DNA of 33,305 bases, taken from positions 1 through 33,305 of IMG/VR virus record IMGVR_UViG_3300044939_000168, one strand, 5' to 3'. Shown in pieces: positions 12,005-17,421 of this stretch (the stretch's first letter is position 1; every line of letters begins with the position of its first letter). The notes under the pieces are model-generated. The model saw only the letters and a list, made by a program, of their open reading frames with translations, was not told the origin of the DNA and did not search any database. This stretch comes from a virus. The position numbers and the translations under genes are program-made.

Positions 12005-12018
12005 TTAACTTATGTCAA
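11990..12018 (-). promoter_or_regulatory. Leaderless promoter of the terminase operon
   Basis: TTGACA (12018-12013), 17-nt spacer, TATAAA (11995-11990), 7 nt to ATG 11982. The -35 overlaps the start of the plus-strand gene, so the two promoters are mirror images over 43 bp and cannot be occupied together. Confidence 0.78.
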
Positions 12019-12623
12019 TGGCTAACTATAAAGTTTTAGTAGGAATGCCGGTTTATGATTCGGTTCATGTTGAAACAGTTTCGTCTTTACTTGCCCTATA
12101 TCGCGATTGTCAAACTCCCGTCATAATAAGATTTGTTCCATACACATATATTCATCTTGCCAGAAATATGCTTCTTATGGAAGCAATTGACCTTGATGCA
12201 ACTCATCTTTTATTTATCGATGCCGATATGGTATTTCCAAAAGACGGGCTTGATAAATTAATAGCACACGATAAAGATATAATAGGTGGGTTATATCACA
12301 CTCGGGCAGAAAAACACAACCCCGTTATTTATAGAAAAAAAGGAGATAGTCTTGAAATTATTGAGGATTACCCGAAAGATAAAATATTTAAAGTTGATGT
12401 TATCGGAACGGGATTTCTTTTAATAAAAATGGAAGTATTTAAGAATATGCAACCTCCTTTTTTTTATTATGCCGACCCTGAGGAATATGGACTAAAATCG
12501 GTTCATTTAGCCGATTTGGGAGAAGACACAACATTCTGCCTTAAAGCAAGGAAAAACAATTATAAAATATTCTGTGATCCAACAATAAAGATAGGACACA
12601 TTGGAAAAGAAATATACTATTGA
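12012..12623 (+). CDS. GT-A fold glycosyltransferase (family 2-like), 203 aa
   Basis: Nucleotide-sugar dependent transferase. The N-terminus 'YKVLVGMPVYDSVHVETVSS' is the nucleotide-binding strand and helix. 'HLLFIDADMVFPKDGLDKLI' contains the metal-binding DxD (DAD, about residue 75). 'DIIGGLYHTRAEKHNPVIYR' and the later 'LGEDTTFCLKARKNNYKIFC' give the acceptor side and the typical ED pair. It is short but apparently complete. It lies alone on the plus strand between the terminase and a structured RNA. The target could be phage DNA, a virion protein or the host surface; the sequence does not say which. The start at ATG 12012 follows from the promoter spacing. Confidence 0.82.
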   Translation: MSMANYKVLVGMPVYDSVHVETVSSLLALYRDCQTPVIIRFVPYTYIHLARNMLLMEAIDLDATHLLFIDADMVFPKDGLDKLIAHDKDIIGGLYHTRAEKHNPVIYRKKGDSLEIIEDYPKDKIFKVDVIGTGFLLIKMEVFKNMQPPFFYYADPEEYGLKSVHLADLGEDTTFCLKARKNNYKIFCDPTIKIGHIGKEIYY

Positions 12624-12648
12624 CAAATTAAAAAAAAAGAAATATAAT
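12620..12648 (+). promoter_or_regulatory. Perfect-consensus leaderless promoter
   Basis: TTGACA (12620-12625), 17-nt spacer, TATAAT (12643-12648), then 7 nt to ATG 12656. Both boxes are exact consensus. It overlaps the stop codon of the glycosyltransferase gene and may also drive the structured RNA downstream. Confidence 0.85.
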
Positions 12649-12655
12649 GACTTTT

Positions 12656-12880
12656 ATGAACGATACAATATCACAAATCGAGGAAAAAGTGAATGAACTA
12701 ATGGATTTAATCTCTTCTTTAGATGAAGGAGAACAAAAAACAACTCTTCTTGGATTGGTAAATCAAATGAAAGATAATCTTCAAAACACTTCTTTTGAGG
12801 AAACTCCAATACCAAAAAGACCTTCTAATATCATGGAGCAAATAACGGGTGAAGAAATGAAACCTGAACCGATGAGATAA
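12656..12880 (+). CDS. Unknown small helical protein, 74 aa
   Basis: Not recognised. It is acidic and predicted helical at the start ('NDTISQIEEKVNELMDLISS'), then 'GEQKTTLLGLVNQMKDNLQN', with a proline-rich, methionine-rich end. An ATG at 12647 in the same frame lies inside the -10 box, so 12656 is the start. Lying straight after an exact consensus promoter, it should be strongly expressed. Confidence 0.6.
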   Translation: MNDTISQIEEKVNELMDLISSLDEGEQKTTLLGLVNQMKDNLQNTSFEETPIPKRPSNIMEQITGEEMKPEPMR

Positions 12881-12899
12881 ATTTTTCATATGCAATAAA

Positions 12900-13023
12900 C
12901 AGCCCCTCGTAATAGTCGAGCAAACAAGGCGACGGGCTGGGGAGAGTGCCTAAGAAGGTCCATCCTGACCTGGAAACAGGCAACAAACAGGGAAACTCTC
13001 CACGCTCACACTCGGGTGAGGCG
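12900..13023 (+). ncRNA. Candidate structured non-coding RNA, core domain
   Basis: A block clearly richer in G and C than the genome around it, with nested helices: CAGCCC 12900-12905 / GGGCTG 12934-12939, enclosing CTCG 12906-12909 / CGAG 12917-12920; GGAGAGT 12941-12947 / ACTCTCC 12995-13001, enclosing AGGTC 12956-12960 / GACCT 12967-12971, or alternatively CCTG-GAAA-CAGG (12969-12980, GNRA tetraloop); and CTCAC 13005-13009 / GTGAG 13016-13020, extended by CG/CG. I found no match to RNase P, tmRNA, 6S or group I/II intron core motifs. The plus strand is favoured, since a terminator lies downstream at 13478-13505 and a strong promoter upstream at 12620. Function unknown. Confidence 0.6.
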
Positions 13024-13136
13024 TTACTCACAACCGCTGGAAAAAACACAAAAAATTAAACTTCGCTAATGAACGAACTGTACCCATAACCCAAACACGA
13101 ATCTTACTCTCTAATCTTAGCCTTGATTCCATTAAA

Positions 13137-13165
13137 GTGAGACGATTAAGCATTTATCCTATAAT
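13137..13165 (+). promoter_or_regulatory. Possible promoter for the second part of the non-coding region
   Basis: TATAAT (13160-13165) with GTGAGA 17 nt upstream (four of six -35 positions). A transcript would start near 13172, at a G-rich stretch. Weak on its own. Confidence 0.35.
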
Positions 13166-13170
13166 TTTTA

Positions 13171-13477
13171 CGAGGGTGGGGGATGGGTTACCATCCATGT
13201 TACACCATCCCAATCGTGGCTACCAATTGTCCAGTCCCCATCCTCCAACCATTTTCAACTACCCCATACCCTACCAATTACCATCTACCACCACCCACCA
13301 AAAAAAACAAAAACCCAAATAATGTAAAAATTGATAGAGGCAACTAAAAGGTGGGACGTTTAGGTTTAGATTGTCATAACAACCCAACCACCTACCCACA
13401 CAATAACACCTACCAACTAACAAGTAAAGCGACATTTTAAGCGGTCATTTTTTCATTTTCAACTAACACAAAAAAAA
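13171..13477 (+). other. Gene-free stretch with alternative pairing elements and C/A-rich tracts
   Basis: No plausible gene. GGGATGGG (13180-13187) can pair with three different downstream partners: CCATCC 13191-13196 (loop GTTA), CCATCCC 13205-13211, or CCCATCC 13236-13242. Then follow pyrimidine- and CA-rich tracts (CCATC, CCACC and ACCAACTA-like words around 13230-13310 and again 13376-13425). Together with 12900-13023 this makes a 640-bp untranslated region ended by a terminator, so it may be part of one long RNA or a binding region. Confidence 0.4.
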
Positions 13478-13505
13478 CGCCAGCCGGTAAAGGCCGACGC
13501 TTTTT
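13478..13505 (+). terminator. Terminator closing the non-coding region
   Basis: Imperfect GC-rich stem (CG, C, GCC on the left; GGC, G, CG on the right, two mismatches) with loop GGTAAA, followed by TTTTT (13501-13505). An A-run on the other side (13470-13477) would also give T's on the minus strand, so it may be bidirectional and serve the convergent gene at 13523. Confidence 0.6.
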
Positions 13506-13522: not shown

Positions 13523-13873
13523 TCAATCTTCAAAGCTAAAATAGTAGGGCTCATCGTAAAGATAAACTCTTTTGACGGCTTTTATTTCTTCATCTGTCAA
13601 TAGTATCTCTTCATAAATCCCCCAATCAGTATAGTAGTAGTATCCTCTATCATAGTAAATGATAAAGCCATCACCCGGGCCGCCTGTTGATAGTTGGATA
13701 AGTATACGCCCGCCTTCCTCTTCAATTGCTAACGGATAGCGATACTCTTCATCATTTACTATTTTATCCATATCGCCGTTATGTTTTTGATATAATTGAT
13801 TAAGAGTTTTGATCTCCTCATTTTTTCGCTTTTTCACATATTCAAGCAGTTTTTTTTTGTTGTTTGTTTTCAT
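13523..13873 (-). CDS. Unknown acidic phage protein with a QLSTGGPGDGF motif, 116 aa
   Basis: The first 40 residues form a lysine-rich helix ('KTNNKKKLLEYVKKRKNEEI'). The rest is beta-rich and very rich in tyrosine: 'RILIQLSTGGPGDGFIIYYD' then 'RGYYYYTDWGIYEEILLTDE'. An '(I/V)xLSTGGPxxxF' segment recurs in small phage proteins of unknown function, as far as I recall. ATG 13873 is preferred to the TTG 13924, which lies in a structured leader. It has its own promoter (14022-14050) with a leader of about 140 nt. Confidence 0.6.
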   Translation of the reverse strand: MKTNNKKKLLEYVKKRKNEEIKTLNQLYQKHNGDMDKIVNDEEYRYPLAIEEEGGRILIQLSTGGPGDGFIIYYDRGYYYYTDWGIYEEILLTDEEIKAVKRVYLYDEPYYFSFED

Positions 13874-13909
13874 ATGCTTTTGAGAAAAAATAAAACTAAT
13901 AACACAAGA

Positions 13910-13939
13910 GCGACAGCAAGCCAAAGCCTGCCTGCTCGC
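13910..13939 (-). promoter_or_regulatory. Imperfect hairpin in the leader of the 13523 gene
   Basis: GCGA 13910-13913 pairs with TCGC 13936-13939, and interrupted CAG/CTG and GC pairs continue inward to a CAAA loop. The neighbouring GGATACCGGTACCC (13965-region) is also near-palindromic. It lies in an unusually long leader of a tyrosine-rich small protein; a regulatory role is possible but unproven. Confidence 0.35.
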
Positions 13940-14021: not shown

Positions 14022-14050
14022 ATAATAAATAAAATCTTTTTAATTGTCAA
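14022..14050 (-). promoter_or_regulatory. Promoter of the 13523 gene
   Basis: TTGACA (14050-14045), 17-nt spacer, TATTAT (14027-14022). The transcript would start near 14015, about 140 nt before ATG 13873, unlike the leaderless genes. Confidence 0.7.
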
Positions 14051-14132: not shown

Positions 14133-14255
14133 TCACCTGCCGGCGTTTCTCATCATAAACAACAACCACAACACAATTAAAAAGTAAATAAAAACCGTTC
14201 TTTGCTCCTGTTGTTTTTGCTGTTGGTATATTTTTTTATAAAGTTTATAGTCCAT
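14133..14255 (-). CDS. Small single-pass membrane protein, 40 aa
   Basis: Short frame, 9 bp after the stop of the 107-aa gene. It has a charged glutamine-rich head ('MDYKLYKKIYQQQKQQEQRT'), one hydrophobic segment 'VFIYFLIVLWLLFMM' and a basic tail. This is a plausible inner-membrane miniprotein at the end of the amidoligase operon; holin-like or anchor roles are possible. No ribosome site is seen, as for other genes of this operon. Confidence 0.5.
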   Translation of the reverse strand: MDYKLYKKIYQQQKQQEQRTVFIYFLIVLWLLFMMRNAGR

Positions 14256-14264
14256 ACTATTTTT

Positions 14265-14588
14265 TTAGATATAAATTTTAACATTAGTCTGATCCTCATT
14301 TATTGCTGTTAAACCATAGTTATAATTAATACTGTTATCAACCTCATCATCGCCCCATATCCTTTTTATTCTTTTTTCTCTTATCCAATCGTATAATTGC
14401 CACTTATACATATACACCTTAAAAAAATAACATTCCCCCGCTCTGTTCGTGTCCCACCGGCTGTTGGTCTCAACCGCCTTAATCAACCCCCTACTAAATA
14501 GTTCCGGTAAATTAATAATTAAATCGCTCGCTCTTACGCGATAATAAGTCCTACCACCTCTTGCCACCAAGTAAAATCTTACTCCCAT
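14265..14588 (-). CDS. Unknown protein of the amidoligase operon, 107 aa
   Basis: Not recognised. It starts 'MGVRFYLVARGGRTYYRVRA', then a helical segment with 'INLPELFSRGLIKAVETNSR' and an aromatic/basic 'YFFKVYMYKWQLYDWIREKR' part. It lies 28 bp after the glutamine amidotransferase gene in the same direction, so it may be a substrate, adaptor or regulator of that system. No catalytic motif is visible. Confidence 0.6.
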   Translation of the reverse strand: MGVRFYLVARGGRTYYRVRASDLIINLPELFSRGLIKAVETNSRWDTNRAGECYFFKVYMYKWQLYDWIREKRIKRIWGDDEVDNSINYNYGLTAINEDQTNVKIYI

Positions 14589-14616
14589 AGGTTTATAAAT
14601 TATTAACTTATAACTA

Positions 14617-15489
14617 TTAACTTAACTCAATCAGTTTTCTTAAACCATTACTTTTTTTATTTTTATTTTTTTCTTTTTTATTATATTGTTCCAGATAAAG
14701 TTCTTCATTATCAGCATAATAATTATAATTATAATAGTTATTATTACCCCAATTATTACCATTACCCCAATAATAATATGATCTGTTTTCAATCTTACCG
14801 GTCTCTTTTAAAATCCCATCCTCAAACTTTAAAAAGATATTATCAATCTCCTCGTGATGAATAATACCCCCAATCTCCACCCTTTTTTCAGCAACTTTCC
14901 AAGTATATCCCAATACCGTTTTATAATCGTAAAAGGTATAGGATGTTGTTAATTTAAAAGTTGTTAGGATAATCGCATCATCCAAGATATATACTTGCGT
15001 TGGTGTATTACAAAACCAAATTAAAGTTTTCTCTTTTGGATTGTATAACACCCCTTTACCCGAGAAGCCGGCTTCCTGTGTATATTTATTAACATTTTCA
15101 GCGTTTAAATTTTTATATCTTTTTAAAAGATGCTTAAAGAAGTAAAAACTATCTGATTTTTTTAACACCCCAGCAAACTTATTCACCGTCCCATTATGAG
15201 CGAATACCCAACCGCCAATATCTTGCAGATGCAGACCGTCAATACCGGATGATCCGGCTGTTTTTGTCCTTGTATGAATAATAAAAATCTCTTCATTGCG
15301 ATATTCTAAATTGTTTAAAATGTTAGTATAGGCTTTTTCACCGTCATAAAAATAAGTTCTATTCTCACGATAAACCGAATATCCGTCCCCCTCCATTGAT
15401 AAATCGTTTATATTAGCGTTTAATAGTTGATTGATTGTTTTATTATTTAACTCACCTTTTTTATTTATACTTAAAAATATCTTACACAT
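14617..15489 (-). CDS. Class II glutamine amidotransferase (Ntn hydrolase), 290 aa
   Basis: The frame begins Met-Cys, so removal of Met exposes the N-terminal cysteine nucleophile of the class II amidotransferases. Downstream are 'IIHTRTKTAG' (residues 70-79, R74 of the glutamine site) and 'GGWVFAHNGTVN' (N99-G100, oxyanion hole). These are the diagnostic motifs in the right order. It lacks a synthetase domain, so the ammonia or the gamma-glutamyl group must go to a partner. The last 50 residues are an N/Y-rich linker and a lysine tail. It lies directly after the amidoligase gene (one base between them) with a GGGGGGG ribosome site 7 nt before ATG. Pairs of this type occur in phages and were discussed as peptide-tagging or metabolite systems by Iyer, Aravind and colleagues (2009). 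Confidence 0.85.
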   Translation of the reverse strand: MCKIFLSINKKGELNNKTINQLLNANINDLSMEGDGYSVYRENRTYFYDGEKAYTNILNNLEYRNEEIFIIHTRTKTAGSSGIDGLHLQDIGGWVFAHNGTVNKFAGVLKKSDSFYFFKHLLKRYKNLNAENVNKYTQEAGFSGKGVLYNPKEKTLIWFCNTPTQVYILDDAIILTTFKLTTSYTFYDYKTVLGYTWKVAEKRVEIGGIIHHEEIDNIFLKFEDGILKETGKIENRSYYYWGNGNNWGNNNYYNYNYYADNEELYLEQYNKKEKNKNKKSNGLRKLIELS

Positions 15490-15490
15490 A

Positions 15491-16375
15491 TTAATACCCC
15501 CCCTGATAATTTATAACAATAGGATTTAATTGATCCAGCTTTTTAAATCTATAATCAAAACTTTTAACTTTATCCGGAGTAAATTTTCTAAAATTAAACT
15601 CTATCTTTTTTATTATTCTTTTGCTGTAAAATCTTAAAGGCTTAACTTCAAGTTGATTGATTTTTTTTAATGGTTCAATGTTGACCGGTATAAATCGACA
15701 AATATCGCCGGTTTCTTTTTCAATGTTTTTTTTAATCTCAAATCTTTTTCTTGTATATTTACCGATAATCTTAACTACTTCTTTAATAGCCTGATATAAT
15801 CCTAAGATTGTGGCATAACTACCACCATAAAGCCTTATCTCTATCGTTGGTATCTCATCTACCCCCTCTAACGAATAATTTACCGCGTGATAGCGTTTAA
15901 CTGATTGTTTATAGAATGTTTCCTCCTCTTCAATATAATCCTCAAAAGCAGTATTACAATAATAGTTGTTTTCCCTTTCAGCATAAACATCCGGGAATTT
16001 TTCTTTAAACATTTTGACTACATCATTAAAAAACTCAATCCTTTGGCAGTGTGCCTGATAGTTCTTTTTTGTTGATATATGGAAGTGGAGCCCGCAACTT
16101 TTATTTATATTATAAATACCGTCTGCTTCAAATTGAATAAACTTTTTAATAATAAAGTAAAGTTCTTTATCGTTTAACGGCTTTGTTTTTAATTCAAGCG
16201 CTCTATAATCCTCACTATCAAAACCATCATAGTTCAATGAGCTGTCTGTTGTTATCTTAATAAAGCCTTGTCTTTCTAAATCTATTAATTCAGTTTCATC
16301 CGGTCTATAATAAATACCCTCAAACTCTATCCCAATTAGGTTAATATACTTAGGATATTTAAAAAACTTTATCAT
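15491..16375 (-). CDS. Amidoligase of the GCS/glutamine-synthetase fold, 294 aa
   Basis: Member of the 'putative amidoligase' family (COOH-NH2 ligases related to gamma-glutamyl-cysteine synthetase). From ATG 16375: 'GIEFEG' (15-20) is the metal/ATP glutamate strand, 'TDSSL' (43-47), 'ELKTKPL' (61-67), and 'CGLHFHIS' (94-101) carries the two-histidine metal and nucleotide site. Further on, 'TIEIRLYGGSYAT' is the conserved arginine loop. It should use ATP to join a carboxylate to an amine, perhaps attaching glutamate or glutamine-derived groups supplied by the neighbouring amidotransferase. A TTG at 16450 would add 25 residues, but that stretch holds a perfect hairpin, so ATG 16375 is preferred. 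The substrate is unknown. Confidence 0.82.
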   Translation of the reverse strand: MIKFFKYPKYINLIGIEFEGIYYRPDETELIDLERQGFIKITTDSSLNYDGFDSEDYRALELKTKPLNDKELYFIIKKFIQFEADGIYNINKSCGLHFHISTKKNYQAHCQRIEFFNDVVKMFKEKFPDVYAERENNYYCNTAFEDYIEEEETFYKQSVKRYHAVNYSLEGVDEIPTIEIRLYGGSYATILGLYQAIKEVVKIIGKYTRKRFEIKKNIEKETGDICRFIPVNIEPLKKINQLEVKPLRFYSKRIIKKIEFNFRKFTPDKVKSFDYRFKKLDQLNPIVINYQGGY

Positions 16376-16416
16376 AGCGATATAATAATTATTAACTTTT
16401 GTTTTGATTGTTGATC

Positions 16417-16441
16417 CTACCGGCTGTTGTAAAGCCGGTAG
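16417..16441 (-). promoter_or_regulatory. Hairpin upstream of the amidoligase start
   Basis: Perfect 8-bp inverted repeat CTACCGGC / GCCGGTAG with a 9-nt loop, between the stop of the 16451 gene and ATG 16375. There is no T-run after it on either strand. It may be an attenuator, processing site or translational control element. Confidence 0.55.
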
Positions 16442-16450
16442 TTTCCTCAA

Positions 16451-16903
16451 TCAAAACTCTAAATTGATAGAAGCTTTGATTGATGTTTTTTCGACAAAGT
16501 TCGTGTATAAAAACTTCACAAACTTTGCCAGCTTTTCAATCCACCGTTGAACGTCCGCGTCAACTATCAAGTTGTTCACTTTAACTTCAACCCCCTCACC
16601 TATCCCCTTTGTTCTTAGGATTGACAAGTTAGCGATATATCCATCGATAAATAAATCTGTCCCGTATCTTGTCAACTCTACCCGGTCAAGCTCTTGTCTG
16701 TATTTTTCAGCGTATTGATTTAACTTATCAGATAACTTATAATAAACTAACCCGTCCCCGTCTTTGTCTTTATAGACATTGCTTGTCTCTGTGCTTTCAG
16801 TCTTAAAAAGTTTTTCAAGTTCCGGAGATACTCTAATTGATAAAATCTGATCCCCGTTATCTCTTGTAAAGTTGATTTCACAGATTGTTTTCTTTTGTGC
16901 CAT
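16451..16903 (-). CDS. Unknown protein of the amidoligase operon, 150 aa
   Basis: Not recognised. It starts at ATG 16903 after the strong ribosome site AAAGGGGGTG, not at 16912. Beta strands at the start ('KKTICEINFTRDNGDQILSI'), a helix-rich charged middle ('KLSDKLNQYAEKYRQELDRV'), then 'GVEVKVNNLIVDADVQRWIE' and a final helix. It precedes the amidoligase gene and, having the best ribosome site of the operon, may be its most abundant product. A substrate carrier for the conjugation system is conceivable but only inferred. Confidence 0.65.
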   Translation of the reverse strand: MAQKKTICEINFTRDNGDQILSIRVSPELEKLFKTESTETSNVYKDKDGDGLVYYKLSDKLNQYAEKYRQELDRVELTRYGTDLFIDGYIANLSILRTKGIGEGVEVKVNNLIVDADVQRWIEKLAKFVKFLYTNFVEKTSIKASINLEF

Positions 16904-17081
16904 ATTTTTCACCCCCTTTCGTTGGATATAAACTATTAATTAAACTTATAATCTCCTCGTCTATTTCCTCTTTAATTTCGCTCAAATTAACCGGTGCGAT
17001 AATATCCAAAACCCTATCCGGTATGATGCTTTTTTTTATCCGCTCAAGCTCTATATCAAAATTATTGTTTTTATTTTTCAT
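16878..17081 (-). CDS. Unknown small acidic protein, 67 aa
   Basis: Not recognised. It is helical and acidic: 'NNFDIELERIKKSIIPDRVL' and 'NLSEIKEEIDEEIISLINSL', ending 'GGEKYGTKENNL'. It overlaps the next gene by 26 bp. No ribosome site precedes ATG 17081; the upstream AGTTATAAGTTAA word is repeated before the 107-aa gene (near 14600). Confidence 0.55.
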   Translation of the reverse strand: MKNKNNNFDIELERIKKSIIPDRVLDIIAPVNLSEIKEEIDEEIISLINSLYPTKGGEKYGTKENNL

Positions 17082-17089
17082 ATAATTTT

Positions 17090-17353
17090 TTAACTTATAA
17101 CTTTTTTTGACATCATTCTTTTATTAAAAGCAACCCCAATTCTACTTATATTTAAAACTTTTGCTAATACTGTTGACGGTATATCTTTTGCTTCAACCCA
17201 CAACTTATATTGTTTATTTTTTTCTTTTTCTAATTCTTGCTTAAACATTTTTAAATATTCTCTTATTTCTTTTATTCTTTTGCGTGTTATAATTAAATCA
17301 GCCATAATTCGATAATCTTTTTTTGTTAGTTTTCTTGTTTTTCTACCCGACAT
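17090..17353 (-). CDS. Small basic helix-turn-helix-like protein, 87 aa, first gene of the amidoligase operon
   Basis: Highly basic with a long coiled-coil ('RIKEIREYLKMFKQELEKEK'), followed by 'IPSTVLAKVLNISRIGVAFN', which has the spacing of a helix-turn-helix (helix, turn at NIS, recognition helix). It could be a DNA-binding regulator of this operon. It is preceded by a consensus promoter (17393-17421) with a leader of about 35 nt that has no ribosome site. Confidence 0.58.
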   Translation of the reverse strand: MSGRKTRKLTKKDYRIMADLIITRKRIKEIREYLKMFKQELEKEKNKQYKLWVEAKDIPSTVLAKVLNISRIGVAFNKRMMSKKVIS

Positions 17354-17392
17354 ATTTTTATTTTCATTTTTAAATTTTAAAAGCCTAACTTC

Positions 17393-17421
17393 AATATAAC
17401 AGCATAGTTAAAAAAAGTCAA
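17393..17421 (-). promoter_or_regulatory. Promoter of the amidoligase operon
   Basis: TTGACT (17421-17416), 17-nt spacer, TATATT (17398-17393). The same pair of boxes (TTGACT and TATATT, 17 apart) is used at 26670-26698 on the plus strand. Confidence 0.75.

Follow-up and report, generated by a model that had tools for sequence, protein, structure and literature searches.

A probable amidoligase-glutamine amidotransferase pair in an SU10-like phage and its candidate small partner

The window analysed here, which is the whole 33,305-nucleotide viral record IMGVR_UViG_3300044939_000168 of IMG/VR, carries on its minus strand a run of genes (17353-14133) coding, in that order, for an 87-aa helix-turn-helix (HTH)-like protein, a 67-aa protein, a 153-aa protein, an amidoligase, a glutamine amidotransferase (GATase), a 107-aa protein and a 40-aa protein (Table 1). 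Judging from their sequences, the two enzymes form a real and probably active pair. The pair is of an already described kind; the additions made here are a candidate partner of 150/153 aa, a strong hairpin, and a pattern of gamma-glutamyl cyclotransferase (GGCT) or C26 peptidase partners in relatives. The best reading as a whole, in which our confidence is middling, is that of a glutamine-fed amidoligase pair acting on a host wall peptide or on a related metabolite carboxylate. Amide chemistry using glutamine and ATP appears likely from the make-up of the two proteins; wall peptides or related metabolites are put forward as the target more tentatively.

Table 1. Features of the minus-strand gene run and of its flanking signals (positions in the window)
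Feature	Position	Strand	Basis
Sigma70-like promoter, TTGACT-17-TATATT with TG extension	17393..17421	-	Motif match
87-aa basic HTH-like protein, first gene downstream of the promoter	17090..17353	-	ORF alone
67-aa protein, overlapping the 153-aa gene	16878..17081	-	ORF alone
153-aa protein (150 aa from internal ATG), candidate third component	16451..16912	-	Syntenic homologue in L082
Intercistronic RNA hairpin between the 150-aa gene and the amidoligase start	16401..16457	-	Folding energy
Amidoligase_2, predicted glutamine-synthetase-fold ATP-dependent ligase	15491..16450	-	PF12224, motifs, AlphaFold model
Predicted stand-alone class-II (Ntn) GATase, 290 aa, N/Y-rich C-terminal tail	14617..15489	-	Catalytic residues, profile match
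107-aa protein 3' of the GATase	14265..14588	-	ORF alone
40-aa protein, single hydrophobic segment	14133..14255	-	ORF alone
Intrinsic terminator closing the minus-strand gene run	13472..13505	-	14-pair stem + T run

The amidoligase scores 25.9 bits against PF12224 (Amidoligase_2), for a curated cut-off of 22, and the three motifs attributed to it in an earlier, sequence-only reading of the locus (GIEFEG, CGLHFHIS and IEIRLYGG) are all present. The residues that are invariant across 36 relatives (E42, E44, D69, S71, E86, N116, S118, C119, G120, H122, H124, R186, Y187, N191, E204 and R206) are all kept, and the metal/ATP-binding motifs of Amidoligase_2, i.e. GxExE, CGxHxH and ExR, are conserved in the window ligase (36-sequence alignment). 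The AlphaFold model of the protein has a pLDDT of 67, with a core at 80-90; the core (residues 33-237) matches glutamine synthetase (4bax, Z 9.1), PafA (4bjr, 8.6), YbdK (1r8g, 8.5), Dop (5lrt, 8.5) and GmaS (7cqn, 8.2). All top matches come from one superfamily and suggest that the modelled ligase has a glutamine-synthetase-like fold; because the Z values are modest, this evidence is supportive rather than decisive. No Pup-like gene was noted.

The second enzyme had been recognised as a GATase from Cys2, R74, N99 and G100, which are indeed found at these positions. Across 34 relatives the invariant residues are C2, G36, H72, R74, T77, H87, H98, N99 and G100, and the window protein keeps them all. 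Taken alone it stays under the Pfam cut-offs, with 16.4 bits for GATase_4 (PF13230) and 13.4 bits for GATase_6; 31 of the 34 proteins in its alignment match GATase_6. It is matched at E 3e-28 by a profile extended over neighbours in phage contigs, a profile that was seeded with five GATases, the window protein among them, and that also includes tf_22 and gp83 of phiEco32. The GATase sequence matched nothing when searched against the PDB. Its residues mark the protein as a predicted divergent class-II GATase with the full catalytic set. The order of the two genes and the one-base gap between them (position 15490) are as first described. That the pair could be decayed or non-functional cargo, an idea to which the divergence of the GATase and its low-complexity tail lend some substance, is extremely improbable in view of the two intact frames and of the retention of every invariant residue at 15-27% identity to relatives; no catalytic residue is lost in the alignments of 36 and 34 relatives.

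When each enzyme was used as a single query against phage records and viral contigs, no match was significant. Since these direct searches gave no close relative, alignments of weakly similar phage proteins were used. Scanning with the CGxHxH motif of the ligase alone, the GATase being no part of the query, yielded 80 viral loci; a scan with the GATase alignment only gave no confirmed match. A class-II GATase lies on the ligase strand in 67 of the 80 phage loci, downstream of the ligase in 61 and upstream in 6, the largest gap being 498 nt. All 69 GATase ORFs are on the same strand as the ligase and within 500 nt of it; for other ORFs of at least 150 aa the figure is 38 of 582. A GATase is present in 35 of the 45 ligase clusters (clustering at 60% identity). 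The pairing proposed from the single locus is thus borne out by tight linkage, and a separate distribution of the two genes was not seen. In bacterial and MAG contigs the ligase occurs both with and without a GATase, and the bare pair is found there in the same order.

A second architecture was also revealed. It consists of an amidoligase of about 600 aa, a GATase, in most of the loci a conserved protein of about 100 aa with the motif KSK...LY.RAKKNPF, and a second amidoligase of about 390 aa, and it was seen in loci L017, L020, L030, L031, L035, L049, L069, L071, L077, L078, L080, L091 and others.

Amidoligase-GATase genes have been described in phiEco32, LUZ24-like, RIO-1, PSA-HP1 and OM43 phages (PMC5498523, PMC10580990). 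According to these papers, which cite them, Iyer 2009 and Hardies 2013 guessed that the cassette alters the host peptidoglycan and blocks superinfection; the descriptions of the phiEco32, LUZ24, RIO-1, PSA-HP1 and OM43 cassettes report no substrate and present wall modification without experimental proof (PMC5498523, PMC10580990). The connection between phage pairs of this kind and Iyer et al. 2009, already drawn in the sequence-only reading, is correct. As in the window, the cassette of phiEco32, LUZ24, tf, RIO-1 and PSA-HP1 has Amidoligase_2 and class-II GATase genes adjacent and in the same order, but it also contains a COOH-NH2 ligase, a RimK-like ATP-grasp protein and a GGCT, and its GATases are larger (531-676 aa versus 290 aa here). 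The COOH-NH2 ligase, ATP-grasp and GGCT were not found in the window record, which is possibly a fragment, nor in phage contig L082 (see below); the same searches recovered all three in tf and phiEco32, with RimK there below the cut-off. Because the other cassette members were not found, the locus was classed as Amidoligase_2 plus class-II GATase and not as a full cassette. In Methylophilales phage MEP401 (gp05-gp06) and related OM43 phages, Amidoligase_2 is likewise directly followed by a class-II GATase, with the rest of the cassette not adjacent (PMC10580990). The GATase of MEP401 is 289 aa long, near the size of that of the window, whereas its ligase measures 546 aa and has some 310 extra N-terminal residues; identity is about 25%; besides, the MEP401 pair is without a 150-aa partner and adjoins replication genes.

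In the reading that we prefer, the locus would be a pair-only form of the phiEco32/LUZ24/RIO-1 cassette, inserted as an extra operon in an SU10-like phage. The GATase, with Cys2 as the nucleophile, would split glutamine by hydrolysis, releasing ammonia and leaving glutamate; the ligase, of glutamine-synthetase fold, would use ATP to activate a carboxylate as an acyl-phosphate, and the activated carboxylate would react with the ammonia, or with an amine, to form an amide. The likeliest target, altered by the phage during infection, would be a glutamate-type carboxylate, carried either by a stem peptide of the host cell wall or by a related small metabolite. Here the glutaminase and ligase chemistry is deduced from the families to which the enzymes belong, what the acceptor is and how the phage gains are guesses. 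Against a wall target count the operon's lack of any recognised wall gene and the failure to find here the very cassette members on which the wall hypothesis leans (COOH-NH2 ligase, ATP-grasp and GGCT). A functional analogy, and nothing closer, is provided by MurT-GatD, which we take to be non-homologous to the window pair, GatD being a class-I GATase and MurT a Mur ligase. There too, in staphylococcal peptidoglycan amidation, a ligase and a separate glutaminase operate as a pair (PMC3267633). Protein tagging or virion modification by the window pair is no more than conceivable.

The partners that replace the GATase in some relatives bear on the nature of the reaction. Among ligase loci without a class-II GATase, a GGCT is found in L055, L059, L062, L013 and L104, and a C26 peptidase in L074, where it overlaps the ligase by 4 nt, and in L043, at a distance of 3 kb. 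One or the other is present in 5 of the 10 GATase-less clusters against 1 of the 35 with a GATase (Fisher p 0.001), which is a lead rather than proof because the GGCT and C26 search profiles were seeded from the matches themselves and several of the GATase-less contigs are truncated and short. Pfam independently lists GGACT and Peptidase_C26 among the neighbours of Amidoligase_2. As a lead, this pattern supports gamma-glutamyl amide chemistry as a shared theme, and the swap of the GATase for enzymes cleaving gamma-glutamyl amides fits a make-and-break scheme as well as it fits ammonia supply. In such a scheme the ligase would gamma-glutamylate an amine, as do PuuA, GmaS and BtrJ of the butirosin pathway, and its partner would hydrolyse gamma-glutamyl amides, the pair protecting, routing or recycling an amine or polyamine during infection. 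To the partner pattern and the Pfam neighbours can be added, in its favour, the match of the ligase fold to GmaS. We nevertheless consider it rather unlikely: a class-II GATase with an intact Cys2 classically donates ammonia, and in tf and phiEco32, whose cassettes are complete, a GATase and a GGCT occur together.

The earlier reading had also placed small partners around the enzymes, and only one of them finds any support. A 152-aa gene of IMG/VR phage contig 3300032112_000026 (L082) is a homologue of the 153-aa gene (E 0.0024 among 6331 ORFs, the C-terminal parts aligning) and sits 4 nt upstream of a ligase-GATase pair, just as the 153-aa gene precedes the ligase here. Both loci have the small gene, the ligase and the GATase in this order with gaps of a few nt; L082 differs by a ligase of 210 aa, by a GATase of 195 aa without the N/Y-rich tail, and by leaving no room for an intercistronic hairpin. 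No relative of the 153-aa protein was found in 33 other records, an alignment scan with its family gave no confirmed match, and its fold is not predictable (model pLDDT 41). The gene of about 200 aa that precedes the ligase in LUZ24-like phages was considered as a relative, and hhalign detected no relation; nor was there support for relating the 1440-aa gene of the window to the large L082 gene. As for the 107-, 40-, 67- and 87-aa proteins, they have no relatives in the ligase loci searched, so that calling them partners is a matter of adjacency alone; the 87-aa HTH-like protein has no family match above cut-off. The size of 150 aa initially given for the upstream gene is that obtained from an internal ATG, which is preceded by a purine-rich, ribosome-binding-like run; the full ORF starts on a GTG and encodes 153 aa.

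With 25-nt arms that are 84% complementary and a 7-nt loop, the hairpin that follows this gene exceeds in length the six other inverted repeats listed for the window. On the coding strand the RNA has a dG of -31.5 kcal/mol, which corresponds to a z of -9.1 relative to 200 shuffles, and no second copy of the core was found, making it a single-copy element. It has no U-tract downstream and is therefore not a simple terminator; it is likely a processing or stability element. It covers most of the stretch between two possible starts of the amidoligase, TTG 16450 (319 aa) and ATG 16375 (294 aa). Since most of the first 25 codons are thus occupied by the hairpin, and since the ligase of L082, the nearest relative, starts nearby, ATG 16375 is probably the actual start.

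The small gene and the hairpin raise the question of a three-gene system for peptide or protein modification, with the 150/153-aa protein as acceptor, carrier or third subunit. The position of its homologue in the otherwise very different L082 speaks for such a system, as do the hairpin, which could allow the 153-aa protein to be made in excess over the enzymes, and the presence of PafA and Dop among the ligase fold matches. However, ordinary glutamine synthetases match at least as well as PafA and Dop; L082 is without the hairpin, the examples number only two, and the pair occurs without the small gene in other phages. We therefore view a three-gene system as unlikely. That the protein is a dedicated acceptor or carrier, with the hairpin setting the substrate:enzyme ratio, is a shade less probable still; if true, phages would own a three-gene ligase-glutaminase-substrate module for peptide modification.

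The operon had been credited with its own promoter. The match to the consensus is a good one, but promoter-like matches are about as common in the operon region as in shuffles of the same region (25 versus 22.4), and for that reason the promoter is suggestive at most. At the other end, the strong terminator is also where a 133-aa gene (13523-13924) ends; with the near-perfect promoter that precedes it on the minus strand (TTGACA-17-TATTAT, 14022-14050), this gene is possibly a separate small transcription unit. Farther away, on the plus strand, a perfect 12/12 sigma70 consensus (TTGACA-17-TATAAT, 12620-12648) lies directly 5' of a 77-aa ORF (12647-12880), and the following 600 nt or so (12880-13500) contain short overlapping ORFs only, without excess folding or a match in Rfam. 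The operon genes matched neither defence systems nor NCBIfam.

Some phage base modifications involve amide chemistry. The pair might accordingly be imagined to modify nucleotides or DNA bases, by amidation of a carboxylated base, as a protection against restriction, and DNA methylase, ParB and PAPS-reductase-like genes do occur near some relatives. This role is very improbable: of the window proteins that were scanned, none was recognised as base-modifying, and the neighbours in relatives are mixed.

The phage itself carries SU10-type capsid, portal and adaptor proteins. A glycosyltransferase-like gene (Anp1/rhamnosyltransferase-like; 12012-12623, plus strand) adjoins its terminase gene, and a similar-looking gene stands beside the terminase of L004. 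The nearest phages by terminase, L004 and L005 (56-57%), have no ligase, GATase or 153-aa gene in the available sequence; the absence of the pair from them is consistent with an acquired accessory operon.

To conclude, amidoligase-GATase pairs are widespread in unrelated phages, and in the papers cited here their target has been a guess since the 2009 proposal. A pair such as this one, not accompanied by the remaining cassette ligases, offers a simpler setting for identifying the substrate.
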